DNA from: a virus
Length of the DNA: 50,523 nucleotides
Reading direction: 5' to 3' (one strand)
IMG/VR virus record: IMGVR_UViG_3300044515_000029
Coordinates: 1 to 50,523 of that record
Positions 17,805 to 44,478 of this stretch are shown in pieces; the stretch's first letter is position 1; each line of letters opens with the position of its first letter. The translations under genes and the position numbers were made by a program. The notes below the pieces were generated by a model that was given only the letters and a program-made list of their open reading frames with translations, was not told where the DNA came from and did not search any database.

Positions 17805-17936
17805 AGCTAAGCCTTCCCCTTCGGGGCAGAGCGGTATCAATCGCGGCGCCGGACGAACTACCGGCAGAAAAAGAACCGGCCGTAAGGTCCGGCAGCACAG
17901 CCGCAACTCATACCCGCCATAGAGCGGGTTTTTTTA
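17796..17936 (+). ncRNA. Structured late-operon leader (possible small RNA)
   Basis: Consecutive stems can be drawn: AAGGC/GCCTT (17796-17815), CCCC-TTC-GGGG (17816-17826), then a nested arm with GCGGC/GCCGC (17843-17847 with 17900-17904), GCCGGAC/GTCCGGC (17848-17854 with 17887-17893) and inner CCGG/CCGG (17861-17864 with 17876-17879), closed by the terminator at 17912-17936. There is no ORF in most of it. It could be the attenuated leader RNA that the late regulator must pass, like lambda 6S RNA, or a separate small RNA. Confidence 0.45.
17912..17936 (+). terminator. Intrinsic terminator before the late genes
   Basis: ACCCGC (17912-17917), loop, GCGGGT (17924-17929), then a run of T. The stem is GC-rich and directly followed by the T tract. 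It lies 36 nt before the first late gene, so late transcription must read through it. Confidence 0.8.
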
Positions 17937-17971
17937 TTCCTTAATTTCAATCAACCCGCTTGGAGCAGTCC

Positions 17972-18499
17972 ATGTTCTCGAATTTCCGTAAGTCACTGAT
18001 GAGCGTGTTCGCCGCGGCCGCGGTGTTCACGATTCTGAGCCTCTCGCCGCCCCCGGCAGAAGCCGGCGCAATGTCGAATTTCCTGACGAACAAGGTTATC
18101 GACTTCATCATGCGCGGCCAGGCGTACACGCCGCCGACGACCGTGTTCGTCGCGCTCGCGACTGGCGCGGGAAGCTCTGCCGCTTGCGGCACCGAAGTGA
18201 CCGGCGGCTCTTATGCGCGCGTTGCGGTCACGAGCTCGCTCACCAACTGGGCGGGCACTCAAGGCGCGACTACGACCGCAGTCTCAAGCGGTTCCAGCGG
18301 GCAGACGTCCAATAACGCGACGATTACATTCCCATCGCCTACGGCGAACTGGGGAACCGTCATCGAGTTTTGTGTGCTGGATGCCAGCTCGGGCGGCAAT
18401 TTGCTCTGGCGCGCATCGCTGACCACGTCGAAGACTGTAAATAATGGCGATGCCGCCCCGTCCTTTGCGATCAGCGCGCTGACTTGGACTCTCAACTAG
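17972..18499 (+). CDS. Phage structural/fibre-type protein with signal peptide
   Basis: The ATG at 17972 is preceded by GGAG seven bases upstream; the 175-aa product starts MFSNFRKSLMSVFAAAAVFT and has a hydrophobic core ending in PPAEAGA, a plausible Sec signal peptide. After it comes a domain beginning MSNFLTNKVIDFIMRGQAYT with TTVFVALATGAG and NWGTVIEFCVLDASSGGNLL, a fold common in phage tail-associated proteins, usually without a signal. So a virion-type domain appears fused behind an export signal. First gene of the late block. Confidence 0.65.
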   Translation: MFSNFRKSLMSVFAAAAVFTILSLSPPPAEAGAMSNFLTNKVIDFIMRGQAYTPPTTVFVALATGAGSSAACGTEVTGGSYARVAVTSSLTNWAGTQGATTTAVSSGSSGQTSNNATITFPSPTANWGTVIEFCVLDASSGGNLLWRASLTTSKTVNNGDAAPSFAISALTWTLN

Positions 18500-18518
18500 T
18501 ACATGCCGGAGAATCATA

Positions 18519-20096
18519 GTGAGCCCTCCGTCGAGACTCGAAATCTCGATTCCGACCGCATCTTTCGACGGGGTTTTTCACGGCAGATACCCTCATGGAG
18601 ATGCGCCAGCAGGCCCTGTTCTACAGGGCGCTGCGGCTGACGCTACGTCGGCCAGCGGAGTGCTAACCACTAGCGGCGGCGGCGCTCCAATACCAACGCT
18701 TTTTATCTCGACCACGGGAAGCGACTCGAACCCAGGAACGCTGGCGCAGCCTTGGGCGATCACATCGCTGCTGTCTAACAGCGCGAATCAAGCATCGATG
18801 GTCGGCCAGGTCATTGGCATGGTAGCGGGCACCTACGCGACCAGCGGCATGCAGAGCACGACATCACCGGGTTCCTTTGATACCCCGGTTCTGACTTTGC
18901 CGCAGGGCTCTGCTGGCAATATCACGACATTGGTCTCTTGCAATTCGAGCGGTGTTTACACGCAGCGCGTGGCGATCCTCGATAACTCATCGAGCACGTC
19001 TGGCAACCCGCTCATCGGCCAAGATCCAAGTCACGCAGGATTTTGGGCGCTCGACGGACTGACCATTAAGGGGAATCCGACCAATGCGGCGGCTGTCTTC
19101 ATGGTGACTGGCCGCTACGCAGCGAGTACTACGGGAGGCACTTCCTTCGCCGCATCCAACATCACGATTCAGAACTGTGAGATTTTCAGTTTCACGACGA
19201 CCAGCAACGGAGGATCGAATTCCGGCGGCGTTATCATGCAGGGAACTACCGGCACGAAGTTCCTGAACAACTATGTTCACGACATCGTAGCCACCGGCAG
19301 CGCGACCAACATAGAGCACTGTCATGGTTACGAGGAATTCGGCTGCATAAATTCCGTCATTCACTTCAACACCTTCGCCAATTGCCAGGGCGCAGCAGTC
19401 GACATTAAGACCGGATGCTCTGGGCAGGATATTGCGAACAACTATTTCTATCTGTGTGGCACGACAGATGGCGGTAACGGCTCCGGCGCAATCACGGGAT
19501 GCGATGGAGCGGAGGGAAACCCGAATACCCCAGGAACCTCCTACTCAATCCATCACAACATCTTCGATAGCTGCAACTCGGAGATCTCGACCGATGTAAA
19601 CAACGTCAGAGAGCAAAGCGGAAGCACGTTTAATAACACGATCTATAACTCTCGGGCTGGATCAATCAACCCGATCAATTTTCGAGTCTTGAACGGCGCG
19701 TCATGGCAGTTGTTCAACACCATCCTAGTGACGACCGCTAATAGCAGCGGCGGCGGAAATGCTGGCTCAGGCGGCGTAGCGCTCACCACTGGCGGATGGT
19801 CGAATGTGAAAAATAACTGCTATTTCCTGCACTCAAGCAGTTCGATGTGGGGACAAAGCGGAACAAATTTCAGTTCTCTATCCGCCTGGCAGGCCGCCAC
19901 CGGATCGCCAGATGCCAACTCGATTGCGGCAAATCCGGTGTTCTCTTCTGCCATTACTCCTGGCAATGGCACGACGCAGTTTCAACTTGGGAGCGGCTCG
20001 CCATGCTTGGGGACGGGCGTAGGTGGCGTGAACATGGGGGCGTGGGATGGAACCGTTACGCAGATCGGCTGCAACTTTGAAACTGCGGTGAGCTAA
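18519..20096 (+). CDS. Parallel beta-helix protein (tailspike / depolymerase-like)
   Basis: A GTG start at 18519 (GGAG seven bases upstream) gives a 525-aa protein. Residues about 35-50 contain the GAAADATSASGVLT motif shared with other tail genes here. From about 60 onward there is TLFISTTGSDSNPGTLAQPW, the DUF1565-type opening, then repeated beta-helix rungs rich in Asn (ITIQNCEIFSF, FLNNYVHDI, SIHHNIFDS, NNTIYNS). Such right-handed beta-helices bind or cleave surface polysaccharide. No active-site residues can be assigned. Confidence 0.75.
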   Translation: MSPPSRLEISIPTASFDGVFHGRYPHGDAPAGPVLQGAAADATSASGVLTTSGGGAPIPTLFISTTGSDSNPGTLAQPWAITSLLSNSANQASMVGQVIGMVAGTYATSGMQSTTSPGSFDTPVLTLPQGSAGNITTLVSCNSSGVYTQRVAILDNSSSTSGNPLIGQDPSHAGFWALDGLTIKGNPTNAAAVFMVTGRYAASTTGGTSFAASNITIQNCEIFSFTTTSNGGSNSGGVIMQGTTGTKFLNNYVHDIVATGSATNIEHCHGYEEFGCINSVIHFNTFANCQGAAVDIKTGCSGQDIANNYFYLCGTTDGGNGSGAITGCDGAEGNPNTPGTSYSIHHNIFDSCNSEISTDVNNVREQSGSTFNNTIYNSRAGSINPINFRVLNGASWQLFNTILVTTANSSGGGNAGSGGVALTTGGWSNVKNNCYFLHSSSSMWGQSGTNFSSLSAWQAATGSPDANSIAANPVFSSAITPGNGTTQFQLGSGSPCLGTGVGGVNMGAWDGTVTQIGCNFETAVS

Positions 20097-21319
20097 TGCT
20101 TAAAAGAATTGTAGCGATCGCGTTTATGGCACTCGTGCCGGCGTTGTCATGGGCGAATTACGCCTTTGTGAGCCAAGCGCAGAATGCATCAAACGGCAAT
20201 ACGGTCACTGTGTCGCCGGCGGCTGGACATTTCCTAATTGTTGTGTCTCAGACCAGCGCCGGCGGTGGCACGCCTACCGCCTCGATATCGGACAATCTAG
20301 GAGATACCTGGACTGTTGGCAAAGCGACGTCTCAGGACGGAACTATAGCCAATAACTTTTTCTCAATATTCTACTTACCGGTCGCGCCCGCCGGCATAAC
20401 AACTATCACCCTTACCTACGCTGGCGGAACGCCTGGTGCCGCGAATATCGCCTTTGTCGAATATAGCGGTCTTTCCTCCACTGGATTCCAGGGCGTCTCA
20501 ACCTTCAATCAGCAGCAAAATCCTGGAACCGCAACCAATGCGATTACGACTAACAACATCAATGTCGCCACGCAACCTGGGGCATTGATTGGATGGTTCA
20601 ATGACGGGGCTGGCAGCGGTGGTTGGACTGCCGGAACGTCGCCGCTTACGTTTACCATGCGCGTCAACGGCAGCTTCAACATGCTGGAGGACGCGCGCGT
20701 TACGGCGACCGGCAACGCTTTGGCGAATGCGACCAGCACTCATGGTACGACCCAGACGTATATAACCTACGCGATATTCATTGCTGAGCCATCATCAGGC
20801 GGTGGTGCGGCGCTGGCATCTGCCGCAACCGATGCGGTTACCGCCGTGGGTGCGCTAACGACTGTATCATCGGCCTTCGTTCCGCTCCTGCTCGACAACG
20901 CCTCGCGCTCTGACAATCTTTTGCTTGGCACCGCGCCGGGCGACGGAACGGGAGACAGCGCTCGCATTGGCGGAACGAAGCTCAAGCAATGGGCGGCCGA
21001 TGCGAACGCCATGTTCTCGCAGCTCTACCCGAACCGCAGCCTGCAGACGCCGACGACTGGTTTCTCTATTGCCGCCTCGATTGGCGTCACTCAACTCGTT
21101 CTCAATCCGGCGGGCACGCTGGCAACGGGTACGGTCACGCTGCCGACTCTGCCCGGCGATAATCAGCCGTTCACGCTCATGACGTCTCAGACGGTCACCA
21201 CGTTGACCGTCAACACGGCGGACACAAGCACCATCAACGGCGCGCCGACCACGATCAGCGCTAATACGAGCGTCAAATTTCGGTACATAACCTCGCTGAA
21301 TAGGTGGTTCCGCGAATAG
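20096..21319 (+). CDS. Exported or virion surface protein with signal peptide
   Basis: Coupled start (TAATG). The 407-aa protein begins MLKRIVAIAFMALVPALSWA, a textbook Sec signal peptide with a likely cleavage after SWA. It is followed by a beta-sandwich-like domain (NTVTVSPAAGHFLIVVSQTS, ISDNLGDTWT, IAFVEYSGLS), a linker with SAATDAVTAVGALTT near residue 240, and a C-terminal block (SIAASIGVTQLVLNPAG, FRYITSLNRWFRE). No recognised enzyme. It sits between two spike-type genes, so it may be a fibre or a host-surface protein. Confidence 0.7.
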   Translation: MLKRIVAIAFMALVPALSWANYAFVSQAQNASNGNTVTVSPAAGHFLIVVSQTSAGGGTPTASISDNLGDTWTVGKATSQDGTIANNFFSIFYLPVAPAGITTITLTYAGGTPGAANIAFVEYSGLSSTGFQGVSTFNQQQNPGTATNAITTNNINVATQPGALIGWFNDGAGSGGWTAGTSPLTFTMRVNGSFNMLEDARVTATGNALANATSTHGTTQTYITYAIFIAEPSSGGGAALASAATDAVTAVGALTTVSSAFVPLLLDNASRSDNLLLGTAPGDGTGDSARIGGTKLKQWAADANAMFSQLYPNRSLQTPTTGFSIAASIGVTQLVLNPAGTLATGTVTLPTLPGDNQPFTLMTSQTVTTLTVNTADTSTINGAPTTISANTSVKFRYITSLNRWFRE

Positions 21320-21333
21320 CAGGAGCCTAAAGC

Positions 21334-22914
21334 ATGGCTTTATGGACGTTCGACTCTTCGGCGGTCACGTTTGATTCGACTTCTGCGACATTCGACGGAT
21401 CACAGGGCGGCGGGGGAGGGGCGGCGCTTGCCGGCGCATCAACCGATGCGGTCACGGCGGCAGGCGGGCTAATCAATTTCGCGAGCGTCACGCTCGTGGC
21501 GCCGCTCTACACCGGGGTAGGGGGCATATTCGACCCGAACCTCGTATGGCCGTTCTCGACGCCTGTCGTCGGGAGCGTGGTCAAGTACGATCCGGCAGCT
21601 ATCACCGTGCTGCCAGACGGCCAAATAAATGCGACCGCGAACAACGTCGCGGCTGAGATTCAGTATTTCGACGGCGTCAATCTCAATGAGATAGACGTTT
21701 TCATCACGCCGACGATGGTCGGCTACGCCTTTGACGGCACGATCGCCTCGGGCACTTTCGTAGGCGCTGCGGCCCTCGCTGCTGCTGCTGCGAATCTATC
21801 GAGCGCTGCCGGCGTACTGACGACCGGAATACCGCTACAGGCGGCAGCCTCAAACCTGACGTCGGCGGTCGGCGCGCTCAACACCGCGATCCAATTGGCG
21901 TCCGCTGCCTCGGATTCATCGAGCGCGAGTGCGCTGCTCGGTGCTGTAGGCGCGAACCTGGCGGGGGCTGCAACCGACACGAGCAGCGGGAACGCCTCGC
22001 TGACGACGCTGATCGCGGTTGCTGGTGCGGCTGCTGATGTCGCGAGCGCTGCGGCGGCTCTGTCGACCGCGATTCAACTGGCAGCCCAGGCCACTGACTC
22101 GACCACCGCGTCAGGCCCGATTCGCACGAACATCCTGTTTATCGGCGCGGCGACTGACTCTATCAGCGGCGCGGGCCTCTTGGGCTCGATACAGGTACTT
22201 CAAGCCGCGGCGAACGATGTAACGACTGCGTTCGGCAGCCTGATTACTCAGATTGCACTCGCGGCGGCGGCGAGCTCGACCAGCATCGCGGCCGGTAGCC
22301 TGACATCGCAGATCAAGCTATCCGGATCCGCGACCGATTCAGTCACCGCAAGCGGCGCCCTGGGCGTCCTCGCGCTCAACTTAAGGCCGTCGCATTTGAT
22401 AGTCACATCGTTCTACAGCAACCAGCTTCTCGGCCAGGCGGGACCGCTGCCGTATGGCGAGTTTTTCTCGAGAGTGGATGATGTCGAGATTTACGCGATC
22501 GACTGGACCGGCTGGCTCACTAATTTTTGGGAGCGCGGCGCGATGGTTGCGCCCGGCTCGGTGATTCGACCGACTGCGCCGAACGGCTTCCAGTTCGTCA
22601 CGACCCTGGGCGGGCAGTCCGGCAATGCAGAGCCGGTATGGCCGAACGCAATCGGTCAGATGGCTACTGACGGCAGTGTCGTCTGGACTTGCGAGGCGAT
22701 CGACCTCAACTCGCTTTTCGCGAACGTGCAAAGCGCCGAATGGGTAGTTCAGAGCGGCATCACCGTGAAGGGACAGGAACAGTCGGGGAATCTCACGCTC
22801 GCGGAGCTCGACGCCACGGGCGCAACGGCAGGCCAGAACTACGCGGTCAACGTCGAAACGACGATGAGCGACGGCGAAACCAAGGTAGGCCAGATCGTCC
22901 TCAAGGTTCGATAA
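21334..22914 (+). CDS. Large repetitive tail/fibre protein
   Basis: The 526-aa product has an N-terminal head (WTFDSSAVTFDSTSATFDGS), then ten 20-residue Ala-rich repeats (residues 147-347) with the consensus L-x-x-A-A-x-D-x-x-x-A-x-G-x-L-x-T-x-I, e.g. LAGAATDTSSGNASLTTLIA. The C-terminal third (WLTNFWERGAMVAPGSVIRP, WPNAIGQMATDGSVVWTCEA) resembles phage tail modules that occur near receptor-binding parts. The repeats probably form a trimeric or helical shaft. Confidence 0.7.
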   Translation: MALWTFDSSAVTFDSTSATFDGSQGGGGGAALAGASTDAVTAAGGLINFASVTLVAPLYTGVGGIFDPNLVWPFSTPVVGSVVKYDPAAITVLPDGQINATANNVAAEIQYFDGVNLNEIDVFITPTMVGYAFDGTIASGTFVGAAALAAAAANLSSAAGVLTTGIPLQAAASNLTSAVGALNTAIQLASAASDSSSASALLGAVGANLAGAATDTSSGNASLTTLIAVAGAAADVASAAAALSTAIQLAAQATDSTTASGPIRTNILFIGAATDSISGAGLLGSIQVLQAAANDVTTAFGSLITQIALAAAASSTSIAAGSLTSQIKLSGSATDSVTASGALGVLALNLRPSHLIVTSFYSNQLLGQAGPLPYGEFFSRVDDVEIYAIDWTGWLTNFWERGAMVAPGSVIRPTAPNGFQFVTTLGGQSGNAEPVWPNAIGQMATDGSVVWTCEAIDLNSLFANVQSAEWVVQSGITVKGQEQSGNLTLAELDATGATAGQNYAVNVETTMSDGETKVGQIVLKVR

Positions 22915-23862: not shown

Positions 23863-24387
23863 ATGGCTATCAAATGCGGGGCCAAGACTCGTGCTGGCGG
23901 CAGATGCCGAAAAGCCGGGATGCCTAAAAATGGGCGCTGTCGTTTTCACGGCGGATTGAGTACAGGCCCAGGAAAAGGCAATCAGAACGCTGCGACGCAT
24001 GGAATCTATGCGAAGCATCTGACCGAGGACGAACGCGAGGTTTACGCGTCGCTCAAATTCGGCAACGTCGAGCACGAGTTGAGCCTGCAGCGCATCCGCC
24101 TTGCTCGCGCTCTCGCGGCTGAGACCGCGGCGAACGGCAAGCCCGAGCTTGATGAAGTCACGACGCACGACCAGATCGGCGAGGAAGGCTCGCGCGAGGA
24201 CCGCAAGGAAAAGGTCCGCGATTACGTCGGCATCATTGACCGCATAACCGCGCGCATTGAGTCGCTTGAGAAAACTCGCGCGCTGCTAATTGAGCTTGGC
24301 GCCGATCCGAACAAGGACGCGCCGAGCGCCGATGCGCTGACGCCTGGCAAGCCCGATGAAGCGACGCCAGCAGCACCGATCCGCTGA
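23863..24387 (+). CDS. terS: Terminase small subunit (HGGxSTG type)
   Basis: This 174-aa protein has an N-terminal CGAKTRAGGRCRKAGMPKNG with CRFHGGLSTGPGKGNQN, the zinc-binding HGGxSTGP motif of a small-terminase group, then a helical central oligomerisation part (EHELSLQRIRLARALAAET). It overlaps the large-subunit gene by 32 nt. It should recognise the phage packaging site. Confidence 0.8.
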   Translation: MAIKCGAKTRAGGRCRKAGMPKNGRCRFHGGLSTGPGKGNQNAATHGIYAKHLTEDEREVYASLKFGNVEHELSLQRIRLARALAAETAANGKPELDEVTTHDQIGEEGSREDRKEKVRDYVGIIDRITARIESLEKTRALLIELGADPNKDAPSADALTPGKPDEATPAAPIR

Positions 24388-25717
24388 GGTAATCAACCTT
24401 ACAGCGAAGCAAGCCAACGTCTACGCGTGGGGCTGGCAGGCTGTAGCGAGATTCCGGGATGCGGTCTGCGGTCGTCGTTTCGGCAAGACGTACCTGGGCG
24501 CTGCGGAGATGCGACGAGCTGCTGAGCTTGCCGCACGGTGGAATGTCCACCCTGACGACGAAATATGGTACTGCGCGCCGACGTTCAAACAGGCGAAGCG
24601 GGTATTTTGGCGGCGCCTCAAGCGCGCCATACCGCGCGAGTGGATCGACGGCAAGCCGAACGAAACCGAGTGCTGCATTACGCTGCGCAGCGGTCACGTT
24701 ATCCGCGTCGTCGGCCTGGACTCGTACGACAACCTGCGCGGCTCGGGCCTGTTCTTCGTCCTGATCGATGAATGGGCGGATTGCCCCTATGTGGCCTGGG
24801 AGGAAGTGCTCCGGCCGATGCTCGCGACGTGCAAGTGGTTCGTAGACGGGGTTCTGCACTTCGGCGGCCATGCTCTGCGCATTGGAACCCCGAAGGGCTT
24901 CAATCACTGTTACGACACGTACAACAAGGGTCAGTCCGGCGGCGAGCCTGACCATAAGTCATGGTTTTACTCGACCCTGGACGGCGGCAACGTGCCGCTG
25001 GCAGAGATCGAGGCCGCGCGGCGAAATCTCGACCCTCGAACGTTCCGGCAAGAGTACCTAGCGAGCTTCGAGAATTACTCGGGCCGCGTCTATTACGCCT
25101 TCGACCGCCGGGAATCGGTGCGGTCATGCCCGTATAACGCGTTGCTACCGCTGCACGTGGGCATGGACTTCAACGTCAACCCAATGTCAGCGACCATCTG
25201 GCAAGAACAGCCTGGCGGCGATCTCTGGCAGATTGGCGAAGTAGTCATTCCGACCAGCGATACGGGCGAGATGGCGCGAGAGATTGCCGCGCGGTACGGG
25301 AAGCAGATCCCAGGCACGAAGCCGGACGTTCGGCACGTCACGATCTATCCCGACCCTGCCGGCGCGCAGCGAAAGACGAGCGCGCAGGGTAAGACCGATT
25401 TCAGCATCCTTCGGGAGCACGGGTTTACCGTCTACGCCATGAACGCGCACCCGCTGGTGCGTGACAGGGTCAACCTGACGAACGGTAAGTTCTTGAGCGC
25501 CGACGGAAAGCGCCATGCGTTCGTTGATCCTTCCTGCCGCGAATCGATCAAGTGCTACGAGCAGTTGACCTACAAGGAAGGCACCAGCGATTGGGAAAGG
25601 TCGCCTGACAAGTCTCTCGGGCTCGACCATCTGCCGGATGCGACCGGGTATTACATCTACACGCGGTTTGCGTACAAGCCTGCGCACGGCGCGCAGATTC
25701 ACCACATGGGACGGTAA
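24356..25717 (+). CDS. terL: Terminase large subunit
   Basis: The 453-aa packaging motor has Walker A GRRFGKT (residues 39-45), Walker B FVLIDEW (Asp138, Glu139) and the RNase-H-like nuclease with Asp271 (GMDFNVNP) and Asp333 (YPDPAG). It hydrolyses ATP to drive DNA into the prohead and cuts the concatemer. The length is normal. The headful or cos mode cannot be told by reading. Confidence 0.96.
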   Translation: MKRRQQHRSAEVINLTAKQANVYAWGWQAVARFRDAVCGRRFGKTYLGAAEMRRAAELAARWNVHPDDEIWYCAPTFKQAKRVFWRRLKRAIPREWIDGKPNETECCITLRSGHVIRVVGLDSYDNLRGSGLFFVLIDEWADCPYVAWEEVLRPMLATCKWFVDGVLHFGGHALRIGTPKGFNHCYDTYNKGQSGGEPDHKSWFYSTLDGGNVPLAEIEAARRNLDPRTFRQEYLASFENYSGRVYYAFDRRESVRSCPYNALLPLHVGMDFNVNPMSATIWQEQPGGDLWQIGEVVIPTSDTGEMAREIAARYGKQIPGTKPDVRHVTIYPDPAGAQRKTSAQGKTDFSILREHGFTVYAMNAHPLVRDRVNLTNGKFLSADGKRHAFVDPSCRESIKCYEQLTYKEGTSDWERSPDKSLGLDHLPDATGYYIYTRFAYKPAHGAQIHHMGR

Positions 25718-42328: not shown

Positions 42329-43240
42329 ATGGCAACGGGCGATCAGTCTGACATTCTGAACCGTTTGCAGCGGCTCATGCCGCCGGGGTGGTTTGCGCCT
42401 GGACAGACGCCGATCCGCGACGCGCTGCTGACCGGCATCGCTAACGCTCTGGCGTTCGTTTTCTCGCTGTTCACTTACCTGAAATTGCAGACGCGCATCG
42501 CGACCGCGACCGATGGGTTCTTGGACCTGATCGCATTCGATTACTTCGGAAACTCTCTGCGGCGCCTGCCGAATCAAAGCGACGCGAGCTATCAATCGAG
42601 AATTCAGTCGTCTCTATTGCCGCTGCGAAATACGCGACAGGCGATCATCAACGCCGTGGCTCTCGTCACCGGACGGCCGCCGATAGTGTTCGAGCCTCGG
42701 CGTCCCCTCGATACCGGCGTTTATAACGGCCCAGGACTTGCGTATAGCGCAGTCGGCGGGTACGGCTCTCTTGCCTATCCATATCAGTCATTTGTGACCG
42801 CATTCCGGCCCGCCGGCACTGGAATACCGAACGTTGCCGGCTACGGCATCTCGACCGGCGCTTATAACACCGGCTCGCAAGCCGAGTATGCGACTGCAGA
42901 ATTCACCAGCGGCGTGAACGATGACGACATCTACGCGGCGATAAACAGCGTCAGACTGGGCGGAACGATCGTATGGACGCGCATCATCAGCAGCTTGGCA
43001 GAGCTGAACGCTGGCAACGTCATCGACAACGGCATCCCGGCGCTTGTTGGCGCCGCCTCTGATGTCTCTGTTGCGTTCGGCAATCTGACCGGCGGCAGGG
43101 CTCAACTAAGCGGCGCTGCGACGGATACGACCACGGCCACCGCCGATCTCATCGCCGGAAGGTTCCCATTGATCGCAGGTTACGGCGTGCCACAGGGCGC
43201 CTATAACACGCCGTCGCGCGCAGCTTACGGCCCGCTTTAG
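42329..43240 (+). CDS. Tail protein I-like (Mu gp48-type)
   Basis: A 303-aa protein following J. The N-terminal third (ILNRLQRLMPPGWFAPGQTP, RIATATDGFLDLIAFDYFGN) fits tail protein I/gp48 that joins fibre and baseplate. The second half contains internal repeats: GYGISTGAYNT and GYGVPQGAYNT, and the Ala/Asp motif LVGAASDVSVAFGNLT with LSGAATDTTTATADLI also seen in the upstream fibre genes. Confidence 0.8.
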   Translation: MATGDQSDILNRLQRLMPPGWFAPGQTPIRDALLTGIANALAFVFSLFTYLKLQTRIATATDGFLDLIAFDYFGNSLRRLPNQSDASYQSRIQSSLLPLRNTRQAIINAVALVTGRPPIVFEPRRPLDTGVYNGPGLAYSAVGGYGSLAYPYQSFVTAFRPAGTGIPNVAGYGISTGAYNTGSQAEYATAEFTSGVNDDDIYAAINSVRLGGTIVWTRIISSLAELNAGNVIDNGIPALVGAASDVSVAFGNLTGGRAQLSGAATDTTTATADLIAGRFPLIAGYGVPQGAYNTPSRAAYGPL

Positions 43241-44308: not shown

Positions 44309-44478
44309 TGCAAGCGGCTGTTATCACCGTAACCGAGCAGCAATGGATCGTGCTGCAGAAGGGGCTCGGGAAATTAGTCATGGATGACGCGCTGCCGGTA
44401 CTGCAGGCGCTTCAAGCACAAATCAACGAGCAGATTGCCGCACACCAGATGTTGGCAAAAGGGAATCCGCAAGCATGA
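44305..44478 (+). CDS. Small helical protein after the fibre (57 aa)
   Basis: The ATG at 44305 overlaps the fibre stop. MMQAAVITVTEQQWIVLQKG continues with LPVLQALQAQINEQIAAHQM, a helix. Its size and place fit a fibre chaperone or bridge protein, but no motif confirms this. The stop overlaps the next start. Confidence 0.5.
   Translation: MMQAAVITVTEQQWIVLQKGLGKLVMDDALPVLQALQAQINEQIAAHQMLAKGNPQA

Follow-up and report, generated by a model that had tools for sequence, protein, structure and literature searches.

A fibre-family protein of tailed phages, Gp80, occurs in a form that bears a signal peptide (SP) coupled to a pair of cysteines, and comparison across the family indicates that the representative studied here, the product of gene A, is very probably exported. 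The window, i.e., the whole stretch of DNA that was analysed, is a 50.5-kb virus record (50,523 nucleotides) with a late region and, at one end, a tRNA-Arg. The Gp80 family itself is known; the SP-plus-cysteine form is new, and is regarded as such because it is absent from the eight isolate records examined and from the literature found. The cytoplasm is understood to be where tailed phages assemble. The occurrence of an SP with a matching cysteine pair in the window and in many related prophages suggests a part of the particle, or else a decoy, that is matured outside that compartment; recurrent, cysteine-coupled export of a fibre-family protein would either break the rule of cytoplasmic assembly or reveal a class of exclusion factors derived from fibres.

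Gene A is the first of four genes, A to D, all of which lie on the + strand between a terminator-like hairpin and the terminase genes (Table 1). An earlier sequence-only reading had noted four fibre-type genes ahead of terminase, and the open reading frames are indeed there, 3' of the hairpin; no separate promoter for A was found on the + strand of the window. The block resembles the fibre I and adaptor pair of phage GP4, with spike-like B and fibre-type C lying between. The same reading took this placement to be unusual, which is right as to the position before terminase and wrong as to its peculiarity, since Mu-like prophages with either form of Gp80 share it. There the order runs lysis gene, A, fibre genes, terminase small subunit, terminase large subunit, portal, and the synteny comparison that had been suggested finds the Gp80 cassette kept between lysis gene and terminase, SP or not. 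This order holds for SP loci (L084, L087, L089) and for a non-SP locus (L037), with 5-7 neighbours in common.

Table 1. The fibre block of the window and its flanking features.
Feature	Position	Strand	Remarks
Intrinsic-terminator-like hairpin, then T run	17912..17929	+	strong; just 5' of the block
Gene A	17972..18499	+	SP and Gp80 (GP4 fibre I type) domain
A signal peptide	17972..18064	+	31 residues, C-terminal end PAEA
A first Cys, class I pair	18185..18187	+	mature position 40
A second Cys, class I pair	18371..18373	+	mature position 102
Gene B	18519..20096	+	large spike-like protein, without SP
Gene C	20096..21319	+	SP and fibre-type protein; mature part without Cys
Gene D	21334..22914	+	AAxDxxxAxGxL repeats, C-terminal Gp77-like domain, without SP
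D Gp77-like (fibre-tail adaptor) domain	22723..22902	+	25.9 bits, curated cut-off 27
Terminase small and large subunits	23863..25717	+	phrog_1889, 1.8e-16; phrog_2, 1.4e-43

The assignment of A to the Gp80 family is clear by both profile and fold. Against the Pfam family PF23140 (“Podophage GP4 fiber I protein”) it scores 142.2 bits over residues 33-173, with a cut-off of 27, and it matches PDB 8jou_a by sequence with an E value of 2.8e-12. Its AF2 model (pLDDT 93.8) aligns with the same chain at a Foldseek TM of 0.75 (E 3e-7) and a VIA Z of 15.4 (129 residues aligned, rmsd 2.2).

Ahead of this domain, starting at ATG 17972 with GGAG upstream at 17962-17965, stands the leader MFSNFRKSLMSVFAAAAVFTILSLSPPPAEA, followed by GAMSNF; gene C starts at ATG 20096 with the leader MLKRIVAIAFMALVPALSWA, followed by NYAF. 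SPs had been proposed for exactly these two genes, and both pass a simple physico-chemical rule (positive n-region, hydrophobic core, AxA site), as distinct from a trained predictor, so that by this rule the features of Sec/signal peptidase I substrates are present; B and D do not pass. Only three of the 50 window genes do, the third, at 44475, having a short membrane-type leader, and upon shuffling of the whole proteins the rule is passed in 51 of 5000 trials for A and 44 of 5000 for C. Neither leader contains a cysteine, and hence neither has a lipobox with Cys at +1. Export of the SP-bearing genes, as put forward in the sequence-only reading, is thus probable, and for A the strongest support for the SP being real is evolutionary.

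That support comes from two samples. The first comprises 80 loci at which a pattern search among viral contigs detected relatives of A, whose frames were traced back to the start (L081 was left out of this first set); the second, independent of it, comprises 46 loci from host genomes. Upon pooling, 162 domain hits, less 23 partial ones, left 139 full-length sequences, reduced at <90% identity to 115 rows, of which about two thirds lack an SP and about one third have one. Gp80 was present in 5 of 369 sampled genomes of one class, and so the family is uncommon in that class. None of eight isolated-phage records examined (L154-L161; the matches comprise 35 and 33 records) bears an SP, and their proteins have 0-1 Cys each, by count or by eye.

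Most non-SP forms begin M-(A/S/P/G/T)-A-M-S-D-Y-L-E-N-K or with a near variant, M-x directly preceding the domain in 62 of 79. The SP leaders, as seen in 17 viral loci and the window, are ~22-40 residues long, combine a positive n-region with a hydrophobic core (mean Kyte-Doolittle over the best 11 residues 2.4-3.1), and are mostly unlike one another in sequence. Among 36 non-redundant SP forms, 31 place the AxA site exactly one residue before the domain, which, taken with the M-x start of the non-SP forms, would give both the same N-terminus once processed. Shine-Dalgarno-like motifs stand 5' of most SP starts, as judged by eye. A dual start for the SP forms was rejected: only 14 of 36 have a Met where the mature protein starts internally, and no Shine-Dalgarno motif is evident there by eye. 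Beyond the N-terminus the two forms are under much the same constraint, column-by-column conservation giving a Spearman coefficient of 0.78 over 142 columns, with no column among these at which the two sets differ in a strong majority residue.

The SP is coupled to cysteines, a relation whose examination was suggested by the two seen in the mature A of the window. Of 15 unique SP forms from the viral set, 14 contain exactly two Cys and one a single Cys; of 49 non-SP forms, 47 contain none and two contain one. The count is exactly two at each of the 22 host-genome loci classed as SP, and 0 or 1 at the fully aligning non-SP loci. Pooled over the 115 rows, the automatic SP rule finds two Cys in 35/36 SP vs 2/79 non-SP forms; with two rows relabelled by eye, the counts become 37/38 and 0/77. 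One of these, L113, has a GTG-started leader of 60 residues, longer than the rule permits, and is read by eye as exported. The other is a fusion in L076, an 1169-residue protein with PKD domains and, by eye, its own SP-like leader, which ends in a Gp80 domain with the same cysteine pair. The sole SP row with one Cys, L028, has a deletion at the second Cys when set against the near-identical L086.

The pair takes one of three alternative placements, 40/102, 34/100, or 35/114-115 (35/106-107 in shorter members), and classes I, II and III account for 16, 4 and 17 of the 38 SP rows, with one other; A of the window is of class I. The loop preceding GTEV always bears the first Cys, and one or other of two late model strands bears the second; the strand order suggests that the two lie close in space and would form a disulfide. 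Since disulfides exist in other virions for which no export is described, a disulfide alone proves nothing; what carries weight is the coupling to the SP, and paired cysteines so coupled, as found for A, would be the signature of an oxidising compartment.

How often this form arose is less sharply defined. In the last tree, of 96 rows with the Cys columns removed and 19 very divergent rows dropped, the SP label needs 8 changes (bootstrap range 8-10); the deep branches are weak, and well-supported branches alone force only two changes, or two independent pairs. The one-clade test stops short of firmly rejecting a single SP clade (p 0.054). An earlier tree of 64 rows gave 3 changes, and a quick tree of 115 rows, in which two rows were mislabelled, gave 10. 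The differing cysteine placements appear to favour several origins, but the SP form may also have arisen once, long ago, and then undergone shifts and losses.

The SP form is in general the only Gp80 that its genome carries. This applies to 14 of the 15 viral SP records (the exception, L076, has the exported fusion as a second copy) and to 20 of the 21 SP host genomes, the remaining one having two copies, both with SP. Of 32 SP records, 12 encode a Gp77 adaptor downstream and on the same strand (9 of them over cut-off); of 36 non-SP records (the SP locus L028 not counted), 21 contain a Gp77 match. The function of the protein seems to be retained even as the way in which it is made changes.

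At 8 of 40 SP loci, vs 0 of 76 non-SP loci, the gene directly after A encodes a small exported protein or lipoprotein, all eight belonging to one family; these counts were obtained with a model that was built from these same eight proteins and found no others. Most members share the motif TLAPxGSFEW; the family gave no clear match in PHROGs or Pfam, and the window has no such follower. Some are lipoproteins weakly similar to Rz-like spanins (best E 0.011). A wider scan, from -4 to +6 kb, finds some SP-bearing neighbour at 25/40 SP loci vs 11/76 non-SP loci, with flanks of differing length and lysis proteins included, and for these reasons only the directly following family was used.

Support for an SP in gene C comes from the rule and from a single relative, the C of L005, which likewise bears one; the two proteins share a repeat module and are 39% identical over the mature part, the window C translation having no Cys and L005 C having 2. 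L005 also holds the nearest relative of the window's A, and there the SPs of A and C are homologous at the DNA level (69/89 positions; alignment score 37.5 vs at most 10 among codon shuffles), the likeness that would result from the copying of one leader onto the second gene. A pattern scan for C in viral contigs gave 31 matches, none confirmed, and no relative was found among isolated phages. The AF2 model of mature C, made from two sequences, reaches a pLDDT of 36.5, and no fold claim rests on it. The N-terminal module PSR...GRYPHGD of B is common to L002, L005 and L018; B has, by eye, the look of a beta-helix. The Gp77-like match of D, at 24-26 bits (25.9 for the domain at 22723-22902), is just under the cut-off, which the relatives L101 and L005 exceed. 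A PDB sequence search with B, C and D returned weak matches or none.

Our preferred reading, though it falls a little short of being probable, is that A belongs to the virion as a fibre subunit, one that matures in the periplasm and docks on its adaptor when the cell lyses. The cytoplasmic start (M-x-AMSDYLENK) of a Gp80-type fibre-base protein would have been replaced by a cleavable Sec SP. Exported late in infection, A would lose its leader to signal peptidase I, leaving it with the same mature N-terminus that the cytoplasmic form acquires through methionine aminopeptidase, and would be locked in the periplasm by one intramolecular disulfide. Lysis would then mix periplasm and cytoplasm, whereupon A could join the virion, its adaptor being either D, through the Gp77-like domain, or a separate gp77; C may be a second exported part of the same fibre in the window phage. 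The SP, its cleavage position, the SP-coupled cysteine pair, the single copy and the shared gene slot are supported by comparison, and from these we infer virion membership of exported A and the docking step. It is the single copy and the kept adaptor, slot and constraint for which the virion-subunit reading is preferred. Against it, B and D lack an SP, such that the fibre would mix exported and non-exported parts; the exported followers at 8/40 SP loci fit an envelope role at least as well; and independent origins of the SP form are weakly resolved. We know of no tailed-phage virion protein that passes through the periplasm. Generalized, the proposal would be that a subset of tailed phages of diderm bacteria builds a part of the particle outside the cytoplasm, by Sec export, periplasmic disulfide formation and docking at lysis, and that manufacture has switched between cytoplasm and periplasm several times, SP and cysteine pair being gained or lost together; this we put forward as a conjecture somewhat more likely wrong than right.

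The same export could serve quite another end. A, and C with it, may remain on or within the cell, lysogenic or infected, whether periplasmic or at the surface, and act as a decoy; by occupying the phage receptor or the adaptor of an incoming particle it would block superinfection, Gp80 having been repurposed and being no longer part of the virion. This is a serious possibility, if on balance a doubtful one: the SP and cysteine pair of A suit it, as do the exported followers and the L076 fusion with its PKD domains, whereas an SP record has, with few exceptions, no other Gp80 copy, and the SP form occupies the same slot as the non-SP form in Mu-like phages, retains its cognate Gp77 adaptor in part of the SP records and shows unchanged column constraint, and A of the window lies within a late structural cassette for which no separate + strand promoter was found.

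It is unlikely that exported A instead serves host lysis or envelope remodelling, beside endolysin and spanin genes. At Mu-like SP loci A does sit after amidase or peptidase and Rz-like genes, and some followers are spanin-like lipoproteins; the latter similarity is weak, however, the Gp80 fold matches fibre and neck proteins rather than lysis proteins, and at three SP loci (L005, L006, L104) A sits after head genes; L104 belongs to a cultured isolate, Sulfuriferula multivorans TTN. Still less credible is an uncleaved N-terminal anchor, or a chance extension, on a protein made and used in the cytoplasm like its relatives. The window alone would be compatible with this, given that ~1% of shuffles pass the SP rule, yet the AxA site keeps its fixed place among mostly unrelated leaders, the SP is coupled to the cysteine pairs, and the internal start has the deficiencies noted above; chance extension was rejected on the first two of these counts. 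Capture of A or C from a host secreted protein, as the sequence-only reading had entertained, is the most improbable of all. Secreted proteins do have SPs, and C has no relatives in the phage collection or the viral-contig pattern scan. For A, however, this origin is contradicted, as its body is the phage Gp80 domain, of a virion-type family, with the SP added before the normal N-terminus, and C shares its repeat module and its identity over the mature part with a phage gene, that of L005.

Among known systems, superinfection-exclusion lipoproteins such as Cor and Llp are phage-encoded, exported and located in the envelope. A and C differ from these in having no lipobox, and A in being a fibre-family protein. 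In the accessible portion of a mainly non-subscription literature (including PMC12494034, PMC11654681 and PMC12796354), no exported Gp80 and no Sec-exported virion protein of a tailed phage was found. The disulfide networks of phages 7-7-1 and Milano offer a likeness in disulfide-stabilised virion proteins, and the virion proteins of 7-7-1 form disulfides with no export described in the part of that account available (PMC12796354). In that part “signal peptide” occurs 0 times, whereas the Gp80 cysteine pair occurs only with an SP. The neck or connector proteins of Bas63 (9mt4) and Sf14 (9c39) are distantly related to A in fold, at Z 6.7-6.9, where values below 8 may mean merely a common arrangement. 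Closest are gp80 and gp77 of Ralstonia phage GP4 (PDB 8jou; PF23140, PF23148): both sequence and fold make A a Gp80, the Gp77-like domain at the end of D scores just under the cut-off, and the pairing is kept in many relatives. The solved GP4 chain, which shows no SP, aligns from its own start to the mature part of A, to which A adds the SP and the two-cysteine pair.

A single uncharacterised family comprises small exported proteins and lipoproteins, most of which carry the motif TLAPxGSFEW; among the loci examined, its genes lie in every case directly 3' of one for the exported (Sec signal peptide-bearing) form of the Gp80 fibre protein. At one such locus, L076:7454-10960 encodes an exported 1169-aa protein that contains PKD repeats and ends in a Gp80 domain. 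The cysteine pair of this domain is of the same class as that in the small exported Gp80 protein encoded just upstream. In the near-identical phages of L028 and L086, the second cysteine of the Gp80 pair has been removed from L028 by a short in-frame deletion.

At L005, which holds the closest relative of window gene A, the stretches that encode the signal peptides of A and C, together with the ribosome-binding region, are identical at 69/89 DNA positions, and look like a duplicated cassette. By eye, a ~20-residue repeat module, AAxDxxxAxGxL, is common to window fibre-type genes B and C (one copy each), D (many copies) and the tail gene at 42329 (two copies); related fibre genes at L005, L087 and L093 contain similar repeats.

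Coordinates of the features discussed
Feature	Location	Remark
AAxDxxxAxGxL repeat regions	window 18519-22914 and 42329-43240	by eye
Signal peptides of A and C: coding DNA with ribosome-binding region	L005:8001-8093 and L005:10559-10651	
Small exported family member	L007:8564-8962	directly after exported-type Gp80 gene
Small exported family member	L018:8530-8916	as above
Small exported family member	L015:6408-6827	as above
Small exported family member	L040:2282-2707	as above
Small exported family member	L090:10532-10909	as above
Small exported family member	L097:8873-9334	as above
Small exported family member	L076:6907-7266	as above
Small exported family member	L113:10424-10795	as above

Inspection by eye also finds a regular repeat at L101:18872-19802, reading FLSCLSGSD in frame at a spacing of ~20 codons, that looks like a type I-F CRISPR array adjoining the prophage.
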